Assembly: GCA_937942355.1 (NCBI GenBank)
Contig: CALDEW010000258.1
Span: 1 to 33,752, forward strand
DNA from: an uncultured Pirellulaceae bacterium
GTDB taxonomy: Bacteria; Planctomycetota; Planctomycetia; Pirellulales; Pirellulaceae
Reading direction: 5' to 3'
Length of the DNA stretch: 33,752 nucleotides
Shown: positions 3,625 through 18,142 of the stretch, piece by piece
Numbering within the stretch: position 1 is the stretch's first letter
Layout of the letters: each line of letters opens with the position of its first letter
Notes under the pieces: generated by a model
The model's input: the letters and a program-made list of their open reading frames with translations, nothing else
Databases searched by the model: none
What the model was told of the DNA's origin: nothing
Position numbers and translations under genes: made by a program

Positions 3625-3787
3625 CGCTCAATTCTTTCGCCTAATCGTGCGGTGCCTTATCTCCCAGAAATGGCGATCAAGGAAAAACCATCGGCCCTCA
3701 TTCCGTGTAAGCACCACTTCAAAACAACTGAAAAACGGTTAAACTGTTCACTCATAATTTTCCGGAAAGTTGCACGGGTTAACGCAG

Positions 3788-6490
3788 ATGAGTTCAAGTT
3801 TTGATGCCTTTGGAAGTCGAGATACAATAACGGTCAATGGCCAAGAGATCGGGATCTATAAAATCTCGGCCTTACAGGACAAAGGTATTGGTAAAGTTGA
3901 TCATCTACCTTACTCGATCCGGTTATTGCTCGAGTCCGTCCTTCGCAATTGCGACAACAAAGTTGTCACCGAAGAAGACGTAAAAAATTTGGCGAACTAC
4001 GACGCGGCAAGTCCTGCCAAAGTCGAGATCCCGTTCAAACCAGCGCGGGTTGTCCTCCAGGACTTCACCGGCGTACCTGCGGTCGTTGATCTTGCCGCAA
4101 TGCGATCTGCGATGGCCCGTCTTGGGGGAGACCCTGAAAAGATCAACCCGCTGATTCCGGTGGATCTTGTCATCGACCACAGTGTTCAAGTTGATCAGTT
4201 CGGTTCCGATGCCGCTTTAGAGATGAACGTGGAGTTGGAGTTCAAGCGTAATCGCGAGCGTTATGAATTTCTGCGTTGGGGACAGAAGGCTTTTGATAAC
4301 TTCCGCGTCGTTCCACCCAATGTGGGGATCGTTCACCAAGTCAACTTGGAATTTTTGGCCAAAGGCGTTTTCGTCCGCAATGACGAAAAAGGCCCCGTCG
4401 CAGTTCCTGATACGCTCGTTGGAACTGACAGCCACACGACGATGATCAATGGTTTAGGCGTGCTTGGTTGGGGTGTTGGCGGTATCGAGGCCGAAGCCGC
4501 GATGCTTGGTCAGCCGATCTACATGTTGTTGCCCGAGGTGATTGGTTTTGAACTGACTGGAAAACTGGCAGCCGGGGCTACAGCGACGGATCTTGTTCTG
4601 ACCGCGACAGAGAAACTGCGCGCCGCGGGTGTCGTCGGCAAATTTGTTGAGTTTTACGGTGAAGGCGTCAACAGCATGTCGTTGGCCGATCGCGCGACGC
4701 TGGCGAACATGGCACCCGAGTACGGAGCGACAATGGGATTCTTCCCAATGGACGACGAAACGCTTGACTACATGCGACGCACCGGACGTACCGAAGATGA
4801 GGTTGCTTTGGTCGAAGCCTACACCAAAGCTCAGGGCTTGTTCCGCGCCGACGATACTCCGGTGCCAAAGTTCACTCGCACGTTGGGACTAGACATCAGC
4901 ACCGTGGAACCATCTTTGGCGGGCCCTAAGCGTCCTCAGGATCGCATCGCTTTGTCCGCAATGAAAAAGTCTTTCAACGATAGCCTGACAGCTCCCGTCG
5001 GACACAGCGGTTTTGGGTTGAGCGCGGACAAACTGGACGCTTCGGCGCGAGTGGAAAACAATGGGCAATCCACTGACATTCAACATGGCTCCGTTGTTAT
5101 TGCGGCGATCACCAGTTGCACCAACACCAGCAACCCCAGTGTGATGATCGCGGCAGGTGTTTTGGCGAAAAAGGCGGCCGAGAAAGGCCTAACGGTTCCT
5201 TCTTACGTGAAAACCAGCCTTGCACCGGGTTCACGTGTGGTCACTGACTATCTGGATAAATCTGGCCTGACCGAATCGTTGAAAACACTTGGCTTCCACA
5301 CCGTTGGCTACGGCTGCACATCCTGCATCGGCAACAGCGGCCCTCTGCCGGAGCCTGTTTCTAATGCGATTACAACCGGCGAGTTGGTCGCATCGAGTGT
5401 CCTTTCGGGCAACCGCAACTTCGAAGGGCGCGTCAATCCAATGACCAAAGCCAATTACTTGGCCAGCCCACCTTTGGTTGTGGCCTACGCGCTTGCCGGC
5501 ACGACCGATATCGACTTGGTCACCGAACCGATCGGAAAAGGAACCGATGGCGATGTCATGCTGTCGGACATCTGGCCAACTCAAGAAGAAGTTCAATCAA
5601 TTCTGGACGCAAGTGTGTTACCGGAGATGTTTCAAAATCAGTATTCCAACTGTTTTGAATCCAACGAGATGTGGAACAAGATTGAAACCGGCGAAGGCGC
5701 TCTTTACCAATGGCAGGATTCCAGCACGTACATTCAAGAGCCGCCTTTCTTAGCCGGTTTAACCAAAGAGGTGACTCCAATCGAACCGATCAAAGGTGCG
5801 CGCGTGCTGGCTTTGTTGGGTGATTCTGTTACGACCGATCACATTTCTCCCGCTGGAGCGATCGCCAAGAGCGGTCCAGCAGGCAAGTTCCTACAAGAAA
5901 GCGGTGTTGGTCCCCGCGAGTTCAATAGTTTTGGATCTCGCCGAGGAAATGATCGCGTGATGGTTCGGGGAACGTTTGCGAACATTCGTATTCGAAACCA
6001 ATTGGCTCCTGGCACCGAAGGTGGTGTGACGACTCACCTACCTACCAACGAACAGATGTCGATCTACGATGCTTCGATGAAGTACCAAAACGACGACACT
6101 CCGCTGATCGTGTTAGCGGGGACGGAGTATGGTACCGGCAGCAGCCGTGACTGGGCAGCGAAAGGAACGATGATGCTGGGCGTCAAAGCCGTGATCGCTG
6201 CATCCTACGAGCGTATCCACCGCAGTAACCTGGTGGGCATGGGTATTCTCCCGCTGGAGTTCCAAGATGGAAACACTTGGAAGTCGGTTGGTTTGACTGG
6301 CAAGGAAACTTTCTCCATCGCGTCGCTGAGTGACAGTCTCGAACCACGGTCCTCAATTGAAGTGATCGCCGTTGACGACGATGGAAAAGAGACGAAGTTC
6401 AACGCAACGGTGCGAATCGATACGCCGGTCGAGATGGATTACTATCGCAACGGGGGAATCCTCCAAACAGTTTTGCGAAACTTGCTGTAG
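3788..6490 (+). CDS. acnA: Aconitate hydratase (AcnA type)
   Basis: Full-length aconitase: [72 protein letters not shown]. Track start 3770 is TTG; ATG at 3788 ([12 protein letters not shown]) preferred. Confidence 0.96.
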
Positions 6491-15109: not shown

Positions 15110-16459
15110 TTGATCGCTACTGTCGACTCGCTACGCCCAATGCAAATTGTCGAAGCGGAATTTTCTGCTATATTTCCTACAACCGGAACCTTTCGCACCC
15201 TTTTGGGCGTATTGATTCGAGCGAAATTCTTCGGTCATATACGTTTTTCCCTACGTGAGACTTGTTTCGTGTTTGAAAACCTTTCGGCCAATATTGTCCG
15301 AGCCCAGCATCAGAAAGCGGAATGCGGCGCGTTGGAGTTGCTGCTTAAATCGTCGTTCGAGAACCCACTGTTTTACCCATCCGCGGATCAATGGATGTTT
15401 CCGGGCGATTCATTGGCAATCGTATTGCAGAGCAATCTATCGCAGGCTCCCAAGGTGCTTGATAGCTTCCTCCAATACGTCAGTGAACTGAAAGTTGACG
15501 CCGATGACGTTGTCGTTGTGATCAGTTCACAGATGGCGGACCAGTTTGGAATTACCGCCCAGCAATTACAACAATCGGAATCCGAAGTTGCCAACGGAAT
15601 GCCGCCTGCGCTGATGCAAGTCAAAATTGGCGGTGGTGAAGTTTCGTTTCAAGTCCACGATCCAGCCAATTCCTACGGGCTGGCCTACCTTGCGGCCAAC
15701 GAGGCGGGCGATCCGGTGCACATCAATCGCTTACTGGCCGACGCCGACGTTGTCGTTCCCATTGGATGTCCAACGCCGGGTGATCAGCAACGATATGACT
15801 GTTTGTATCCTGATTTTGGATCTGCCGAACGTTTGAAGCAATTTAAAGCCGGATCGGGATCAGTCGCCCAACGTCAGCAAGAGATCGAGTTGGCTAACGA
15901 TAACCTGGGAACATTTTTCTCTGTTGAGATCGTCACCGAACCCGGCGGACAAATTGCGGCGGTGTTTGCTGGGGCGCGAAAGGATGTCTTTGAGCAATCG
16001 AAACAATTGGCTGACGAACTTTGGACCGTCAACTTCATTCCAAATCACCAAACGGTATTGGCAACCATTGAAGAACCGGGGCGCGTGCAGACGTGGGACG
16101 ACTTTACCGACGCGGTGATCAATGCGGCACACGTCTCTAACGGCAGCGGCCCAATCGCGGTATGGACGGCCATCGACCAACCCGCAGACCGAAACACGCG
16201 CAAGGCGCTGATGGCTCAGTTTGACGAAAGCATCAGTGGAAAACTCTCTGTACGCCAGCGGTCGTTGGCTTCCATTGTTTCTGAACGGCCTGTCTTTTTG
16301 AAATCCGAACTGTCGCAATCGCAAACCGAAGAGTTAGGCTTAGGCTATATTGCATCCGAGAGCGACGTCGAATCGATACTGGATAAGTCTGAGTCAGGCA
16401 TTTTACTTCGCGATGCTCACCGCTGCCGAATTGACCAACCCCAAACCGCATCCAAGTAA
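15110..16459 (+). CDS. LarA-like (DUF2088, nickel-dependent racemase fold) protein, apparently catalytically degenerate
   Basis: GDSLAIVLQSNLSQAPKVL, GDPVHINRLLADADVVVPIG, FFSVEIVTEPGGQIAAVFAGARKDVFEQ resemble LarA segments; TTG start uncertain. Confidence 0.6.
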   Translation: MIATVDSLRPMQIVEAEFSAIFPTTGTFRTLLGVLIRAKFFGHIRFSLRETCFVFENLSANIVRAQHQKAECGALELLLKSSFENPLFYPSADQWMFPGDSLAIVLQSNLSQAPKVLDSFLQYVSELKVDADDVVVVISSQMADQFGITAQQLQQSESEVANGMPPALMQVKIGGGEVSFQVHDPANSYGLAYLAANEAGDPVHINRLLADADVVVPIGCPTPGDQQRYDCLYPDFGSAERLKQFKAGSGSVAQRQQEIELANDNLGTFFSVEIVTEPGGQIAAVFAGARKDVFEQSKQLADELWTVNFIPNHQTVLATIEEPGRVQTWDDFTDAVINAAHVSNGSGPIAVWTAIDQPADRNTRKALMAQFDESISGKLSVRQRSLASIVSERPVFLKSELSQSQTEELGLGYIASESDVESILDKSESGILLRDAHRCRIDQPQTASK

Positions 16460-16462
16460 AAC

Positions 16463-17371
16463 ATGTTCGACGAATCAACCCTTTCACATTACCGCGCTCT
16501 CAAAGACCGAGTCGCCATGGTCGAGCTTGACAGCTGTCTGGTTCAGCTGACGGGATCCGATCGGCATCAATTCCTTCACAACTTCTGCACCAACGAGATC
16601 AAGGAATTGCCGAACTTTGGCGTTTGCGAAGCCTTGATTCTCGACGGCAAAGGGAAAGTCCTTTTCCATATTCATGTGCTCAACAGGCAAGATGCGCTGC
16701 TGCTTCATTCCATGGCCAACGACGCGGAAGCAATGGTTGAACATCTTGACAAGTATCTTCTAAGAGACGATGTCCAGATGACCGTGATCTCTGATCACAA
16801 GTCAAAGTTCGTGACGGGACCGGAATCGGAAAAAGCCCTCTCGACTTTACTCCCATCAAAACTTGAACCAAACCAGTTGCTTGAACTGTCCTCTGGAGGA
16901 TTGATTGCTCATGTAGAGCTCGCGGGTTGGGGCTACTTGATCCTATCCGATGATGAAGACTTGGTCGACAATTCGATTGTTTCTGCCGGGCCAGATGCGC
17001 TTCAAGCGCTCCGTATTGAAAACCAAACGCCTTGGATGGGCATCGACATCGACAATTCCAATTTGCCACAGGAATTATTGCGAGACGAAAAGTGCATCAG
17101 CTTCACTAAAGGCTGCTATCTTGGCCAAGAGACGGTGGCGCGAATCGACGCAATCGGTCGTGTTAATCGAGTGATCGTTTTGGTCAAATCAGAAGTCGCA
17201 GTTGAGAGCGGAGCCGAATTGATAGTTGCAGAAAAAACGGTCGGAAAGTTACTGTCCGTTTCGTGGTCGCCCGACCAAGCCTGTTTCCTTGCGCTCGCGA
17301 TGGTGCGACGTCCGCACGAAAAAGCGGGCACCGAACTGACGTGTGGTTCATCCTTGGTAACGGTCGTTTAG
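16463..17371 (+). CDS. ygfZ: YgfZ/GcvT-like folate-binding protein
   Basis: Signature FTKGCYLGQETVARID; N-terminal LTGSDRHQFLHNFCTNEI. Confidence 0.9.
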   Translation: MFDESTLSHYRALKDRVAMVELDSCLVQLTGSDRHQFLHNFCTNEIKELPNFGVCEALILDGKGKVLFHIHVLNRQDALLLHSMANDAEAMVEHLDKYLLRDDVQMTVISDHKSKFVTGPESEKALSTLLPSKLEPNQLLELSSGGLIAHVELAGWGYLILSDDEDLVDNSIVSAGPDALQALRIENQTPWMGIDIDNSNLPQELLRDEKCISFTKGCYLGQETVARIDAIGRVNRVIVLVKSEVAVESGAELIVAEKTVGKLLSVSWSPDQACFLALAMVRRPHEKAGTELTCGSSLVTVV

Positions 17372-18142
17372 ATGGCGAAGCAAAAATCTCTTTTCCGGCC
17401 CTGCATCGATCTACACGATGGCCAAGTCAAACAAATCGTCGGCGGCACGCTGACTGATGATGGGGCGACTGAGAACTTCGTGTCCAATCGCCCAAGCTCT
17501 CACTTTGCCGAAATGTTTCGCAGTGATGAACTCCTTGGTGGGCACGTGATTCAACTTGGCCCCGGCAATCAAGCCGCCGCCGAAGAGGCAATTGCCGCTT
17601 ATCCGGGCGGACTTCAAATTGGCGGAGGCATAAATGATTCCAATGCGCGAAAGTGGATCGACCTAGGAGCCAGTCACGTTATCGTCACATATTGGCTATT
17701 AAATGAAAAAGGGGAATTTCAGGAGCAGCGTGCCTCCGAGTTGGCGGACATTGTCTCGCCTCAGAGATTGGTGATCGACCTCAGTTGCCGCAAGACCGAC
17801 TCGGGCTGGAGGGTCGCCATGAACCGCTGGCAAACTTTGACTGATCTCGAGCTTGACCAAACGGCTTTGGATCGTCTGAGTCAGTACTGCGACGAGTTCC
17901 TAATTCATGCGGCCGATGTTGAAGGAAAATGCCGGGGCATTGACGGACCCTTGGTAGAAATGCTGGGCCAATGGTCGGGGCGCAAAATCGTTTATGCCGG
18001 AGGCGTCGCCCGCATGGCGGACGTTGAATTGATCCAGAGCCTAAGCGGCGGTCGTGTGGACGTTACTGTCGGCAGCGCTTTGGACATCTTTGGTGGCGAC
18101 GGAGTAGAATACAGAGAATTGGTAGACTGGAATCAAAGATAG
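17372..18142 (+). CDS. hisA: HisA-type ProFAR isomerase, eukaryotic HIS6-like
   Basis: CIDLHDGQVKQIVGGTL, NFVSNRPSSHFAEMF, HVIQLGPGNQAAAEEA, LQIGGGIND, VIDLSCRKT, MNRWQTLTDLELD, EFLIHAADVEG, KIVYAGGVA, SALDIFGG. Confidence 0.9.
   Translation: MAKQKSLFRPCIDLHDGQVKQIVGGTLTDDGATENFVSNRPSSHFAEMFRSDELLGGHVIQLGPGNQAAAEEAIAAYPGGLQIGGGINDSNARKWIDLGASHVIVTYWLLNEKGEFQEQRASELADIVSPQRLVIDLSCRKTDSGWRVAMNRWQTLTDLELDQTALDRLSQYCDEFLIHAADVEGKCRGIDGPLVEMLGQWSGRKIVYAGGVARMADVELIQSLSGGRVDVTVGSALDIFGGDGVEYRELVDWNQR

Follow-up and report, generated by a model that had tools for sequence, protein, structure and literature searches.

A HIS6-type HisA in a planctomycete genome and the bacterial breadth of its subfamily

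Results

The window, the 33,752-nucleotide stretch of DNA analysed here, makes up a single contig of a MAG (G000; 4.6 Mb, 559 contigs, 82.6% complete, 2.46% contamination), which was assigned to Planctomycetota from its gene content and its kinship groups with named planctomycete relatives such as Scalindua. At the locus, a hisA gene of the HIS6 type is preceded on the same strand by a ygfZ gene and, 3 nt upstream of that, by an open reading frame with a weak match to Lar_N (Table 1). The hisA reading frame has 0 internal stops and contains all motifs quoted in the original prediction. Its start directly after ygfZ, also part of that prediction, was seen in the sequence, where the ygfZ stop codon TAG (17369-17371) abuts the hisA ATG at 17372 with a gap of 0 nt. 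No his genes are clustered around it, and scanning the window for Rfam families and tRNAs returned nothing.

Table 1. Genes and active-site codons of the window, and the intermediate HisA genes of other planctomycetes.
Feature	Coordinates	Strand	Details
ORF, Lar_N-like (lactate-racemase N-terminal)	15110..16459	+	449 aa; Lar_N 16.7 bits, below cut-off 23.6
ygfZ (CAF17-like folate-binding protein)	16463..17371	+	TIGR03317 72.4 bits, over cut-off
HIS6-type hisA (predicted ProFAR isomerase)	17372..18142	+	256 aa, ATG start, TAG stop; profile, PDB matches, model
Codon of Asp13	17408..17410	+	Alignment: Salmonella HisA Asp7, Medicago HISN3 Asp57
Codon of Asp136	17777..17779	+	Alignment: DLSCRK motif, yeast HIS6 Asp134
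Codon of His179	17906..17908	+	Alignment: in place of canonical Thr171
Codon of Glu184	17921..17923	+	Alignment: in place of canonical Asp176
Intermediate HisA	L027:1501-2199		Planctomycete families f9, f22 (three proteins)
Intermediate HisA	L028:1501-2196		As above
Intermediate HisA	L029:1501-2193		As above

In NCBIfam searches, the window protein scored 364.9 bits (E 2.5e-109) against TIGR02129 (hisA_euk, cut-off 229.3 bits), with the match covering profile positions 2-255 of 255. The canonical HisA model TIGR00007 gave 61 bits (cut-off 228.95 bits), the bifunctional HisA/TrpF (PriA-like) model TIGR01919 22.9 bits (cut-off 306.45) and the HisF model TIGR00735 16 bits (cut-off 294.55), while the WbuZ model stayed far under its cut-off. 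This confirms the predicted assignment to the HIS6 subfamily and not to canonical HisA. The best PDB matches by sequence were yeast HIS6 (2agk, E 1.7e-78, 53% identity) and Medicago HISN3 (9fcf, E 3e-71, 50% identity), followed in third place by a canonical HisA with an E value of 5.7e-5.

An AlphaFold2 model of the window protein, based on a 36-row alignment, reached a mean pLDDT of 95.7. By fold, too, its best matches are Medicago HISN3 9fcf, with a TM-score of 0.96 and an rmsd of 1.3 A, and yeast HIS6 2agk, with a TMt of 0.94; canonical Salmonella HisA, at about 0.8, fits far less well. Medicago HISN3 was crystallised with ProFAR or PRFAR as D57N mutants (9fcf and 9fcg, according to their PDB titles), Asp57 being the counterpart of Asp13. 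Asp136 is probably the counterpart of the second canonical catalytic aspartate (Salmonella Asp129), from which it is displaced by 2 residues in the alignment, and would presumably take over its role. All four residues used to define membership in the HIS6 type (the first catalytic Asp, the DLSC Asp, His179 and Glu184) are present in the window protein. His179 and Glu184 are common to all HIS6-type rows of the alignment and to three intermediate proteins described below, and canonical Arg15 is replaced by Gln21 in HIS6-type proteins. Canonical HisA (TIGR00007; Salmonella, Thermotoga) shares the superfamily PF00977, the first catalytic Asp and the expected reaction with the window protein, but differs at the Thr171, Asp176 and Arg15 positions and has neither the N-terminal insertion of HIS6 nor its DIFGG segment. 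With the known TIGR02129 proteins, yeast HIS6 and plant HISN3 (2agk, 9fcf, 9fcg), the window protein has in common the motifs CIDLHxGxVKQIVGGTL, DLSCRK and GSALDIFGG, the predicted fold and 50-53% identity; unlike them it is bacterial, has no organelle targeting sequence and is encoded beside ygfZ.

The MAG contains a single HIS6-type gene as its sole HisA candidate. A search for a second, canonical hisA, proposed together with the prediction, found none over the cut-off in this 82.6% complete MAG, a completeness at which absence alone says little. The other PF00977 matches turned out to be a HisA/HisF-like protein (G000:C307:1363-2121, L002), whose 83.7 bits against TIGR00734 fall short of the cut-off, and a weakly matching sequence on contig C403, which rules out a second canonical hisA among them. 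Weak third paralogues like L002 also occur in other genomes of the window's family. Neither the fragmented window genome nor another genome, G517, yielded hisB, hisH or hisF. In the MAG, contig C443 ends within hisD, and in G559, the nearest relative, hisH and hisF adjoin hisD on one contig. The missing genes are therefore most simply explained by a gap in the assembly; loss of the pathway in the window organism would, judged from the MAG alone, also be compatible with these absences.

G559 keeps the order formate dehydrogenase, proB, DnaJ-like gene, Lar_N-like ORF (67% identity to its counterpart in the window), ygfZ and hisA, with a gap of about 85 nt between the last two. The other five HIS6-bearing relatives that were viewed over a longer stretch had none of the window neighbours beside hisA. 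Conservation of a ygfZ-hisA operon across the genus is therefore ruled out. The predicted operon holds in so far as hisA lies in a tight same-strand run with ygfZ whose order recurs in G559, and fails as a conserved unit, since the order is absent from the other relatives examined. Because of this absence we regard the junction as local and see in it no evidence that YgfZ and HisA are functionally linked.

In the Planctomycetota genomes searched, the two HisA types exclude each other. Both were present together in 0 of the 46 genomes that were searched with both models: the 38 carrying a full-length HIS6-type gene or an intermediate were all without canonical hisA over the cut-off, and the six with canonical hisA were all without the HIS6 type. 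This indicates that the HIS6 type behaves as a replacement of canonical hisA in the phylum; hisF was over its cut-off in 42 of the same 46 genomes. In a wider phylum sample, 23 of 392 genomes exceeded the TIGR02129 cut-off, mostly members of family f14. The HIS6 type was found in 11 of the 13 genomes of the window's genus and in three sampled genera of its family (g1, g271 and g309). Most other genera of the family gave only weak matches of the kind produced by canonical HisA or HisF, and its other members have mostly retained canonical hisA. A single clade for the gene within the family was not rejected (p-AU 0.32), and one acquisition there is possible. Within the genus, G543 lacks the HIS6 type and has a canonical hisA instead (255.6 bits). 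In G454, which is 95% complete and has hisB, hisD, hisF and hisH, neither the HIS6-type nor the canonical hisA was found, which could reflect either an assembly gap or another isomerase.

The original prediction had implied that such genes are rare in bacteria, a view that did not hold up. A scan of GTDB genomes with a HIS6 alignment gave at least 594 pattern matches and at least 582 loci encoding relatives, all counts outside Planctomycetota resting on this one pattern scan. Bacillota, Desulfobacterota and Verrucomicrobiota are among the phyla represented in the matches listed. We examined the best 80 of the at least 582 loci, i.e. those most similar to the Medicago sequence and hence a sample biased to plant-like sequences; their sources included Lachnospiraceae, Paenibacillaceae, Desulfobacteraceae, Desulfobulbaceae, Verrucomicrobiota, Kiritimatiellota, Lentisphaerota, Endozoicomonadaceae, Fibrobacterota and others. 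HIS6-type HisA proteins of Paenibacillaceae, Lachnospiraceae, Desulfobulbaceae and other groups belong to the same subfamily and share roughly 47-57% identity with the window protein. On a Paenibacillus cellulosilyticus plasmid (RefSeq), a HIS6-type member is already annotated as hisA. In Cohnella fermenti (L133), the HIS6-type gene takes the hisA position of a his cluster ordered hisD-hisB-hisH-HIS6 type-hisF-hisIE, in which each gene exceeds the cut-off of its own model. In three other Paenibacillaceae hisF likewise follows the HIS6-type gene directly, so that these four differ from the window, where the gene lies away from his genes.

Three planctomycete proteins are intermediate between the two HisA types (Table 1). 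They scored 151-168 bits against TIGR02129 and 98-108 bits against TIGR00007, under both cut-offs, and their genomes (G017, G036 and G004, of families f22 and f9) have no canonical hisA over the cut-off. With HIS6 they share His179, Glu184, Tyr208, Cys11 and Gln21; they differ from it in having Asp at position 138, a canonical trait, and in lacking the HIS6 insertion and DIFGG. In a tree rooted with canonical HisA, they fell outside all HIS6 rows, which formed a group with support of 99/96, in a region where long branches meet between canonical HisA and HIS6.

The branch that parts HIS6 from canonical HisA in the rooted tree had support of 100/100, and the window gene was placed inside a planctomycete clade. 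Nesting within ordinary bacterial HisA, which had been set beforehand as the outcome refuting the assignment, did not occur. In three rooted trees, with 79, 72 and 65 rows, yeast HIS6 formed a clade with those planctomycete rows of families f1, f14 and f32 that each sampling contained (100/99, 100/97 and 100/97), and Medicago HISN3 took a separate place among bacteria. An unrooted tree of 46 rows, built from mostly different bacterial sequences, gave the same split between yeast and Medicago (99/98). A single clade of yeast and Medicago was rejected in three samplings (p-AU 0.0005, 0.0005 and 0.007); these overlap and contain the same two eukaryotic rows throughout, and the first tree was already known when the tests were made. 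Yeast HIS6 is a long branch whose position within the planctomycete group changes with sampling, and its placement as sister to the planctomycete clade was not rejected (p-AU 0.10 and 0.28).

Discussion

Our results identify the window gene, with high confidence, as the working HisA of this planctomycete (5'-ProFAR isomerase, EC 5.3.1.16), and the HIS6 (TIGR02129) subfamily to which it belongs as a bacterial counterpart of canonical HisA that is both old and widely distributed. We infer the enzyme activity and the bacterial origin of the subfamily; the HisA reading is carried by the subfamily assignment, the fold, the conserved Asp13, the mutual exclusion with canonical hisA and the his-cluster context of a bacterial homologue. 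As a (beta/alpha)8-barrel, the protein would isomerise ProFAR to PRFAR in an Amadori reaction of histidine synthesis, and the HIS6 type stands in for canonical hisA in the window's genus and in two further genera of its family. The gene itself is ordinary: its product, a known alternative HisA, adds one protein to an established family.

Lateral transfer of the gene into the bacterial lineage from a eukaryote, a fungus or a relative of fungi, is the strongest of the competing explanations and still an unlikely one. The position of yeast HIS6 within or next to the planctomycete clade makes transfer in some direction plausible, and other members of the window's family have mostly kept canonical hisA. 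On the other hand, the planctomycete clade takes in several families and dozens of genera and has long branches inside it. Its wider surroundings in the tree are bacterial, as are the intermediates that branch outside all of HIS6, and yeast is one long-branched tip whose place shifts with sampling. The position of the window gene within this clade gives no indication of a recent eukaryote-to-genome transfer, and this part of the original prediction is not supported; its suggestion that the gene is relevant to the origin of HIS6 is supported. Less probable still is that the protein, as a paralogue of HisA and HisF, has a different function, such as that of a bifunctional HisA/TrpF or of a barrel in a cofactor pathway. 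PF00977 is indeed a superfamily of several functions, and the MAG encodes a separate HisA/HisF-like protein, but the HisA/TrpF, WbuZ and HisF models all scored far below their cut-offs and TIGR02129 far above, and both the mutual exclusion with canonical hisA and the his-cluster position in Cohnella point to HisA. That the contig is a eukaryotic or other foreign contaminant of this fragmented and slightly contaminated MAG can be dismissed, given its bacterial neighbours (DUF1571, GGDEF, proB and ygfZ), the same gene type in 10 other genomes of the genus and, decisively, the order from formate dehydrogenase to hisA that is common to G559.

The position of the intermediates outside the HIS6 group favours, without proving, the view that the subfamily arose in bacteria. 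Further, as a lead from two eukaryotic sequences, the trees suggest that eukaryotic HIS6 may have more than one bacterial connection. In a full scenario, which we put forward tentatively and would rate as somewhat less than an even bet, fungal HIS6 would descend from the Planctomycetota clade to which the window gene belongs, or from a recent source common to both, plant HISN3 would go back to another branch of bacteria, and the subfamily as a whole would be bacterial in origin, having passed through an intermediate HisA that is still found in some planctomycetes. The intermediates and the two eukaryotic placements make the origin of fungal HIS6 and plant HISN3 directly testable, and it is this phylogenetic lead, together with the intermediates, more than the gene itself that is of interest.

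The label "eukaryotic" for this family is misleading, as most members found here are bacterial. The "eukaryotic" HisA model describes a broad bacterial subfamily, and annotating such genes as eukaryotic transfers or contamination would therefore be wrong. The TIGR02129 entry reportedly cites Fibrobacter succinogenes as an example among bacteria and attributes it to transfer from plants; because the HIS6 type is so widely distributed in bacteria, a transfer of this kind is unlikely as a general reading. In the papers covered by our search, which lay mostly outside the subscription literature, TIGR02129 goes unmentioned, and the passages found in two histidine-evolution reviews are silent on a bacterial HIS6 type. 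The family also has practical relevance, since the histidine enzymes of plants and fungi are targets for herbicides and antifungals, as PMC5585171 points out in general terms.

HIS6-type genes were additionally observed on sequences of viral or presumed viral origin. Two IMG/VR contigs classed as viral each carry a full HIS6-type hisA, at L173:1995-2771 amid a row of ORFs of ~100 aa, and at L174:1992-2741 between a GroEL ORF directly before it and a lytic-transglycosylase-like ORF. The two scored 382 and 340 bits, respectively, and paired in the tree (100/98); a phage-borne HisA is possible in both cases. A further HIS6-type HisA, with 47.5% identity to the window protein, is encoded at positions 3639-4367 of MT839235.1, an unannotated 4.5-kb "Bacteriophage sp." record from human faeces, where the copy may be host contamination.
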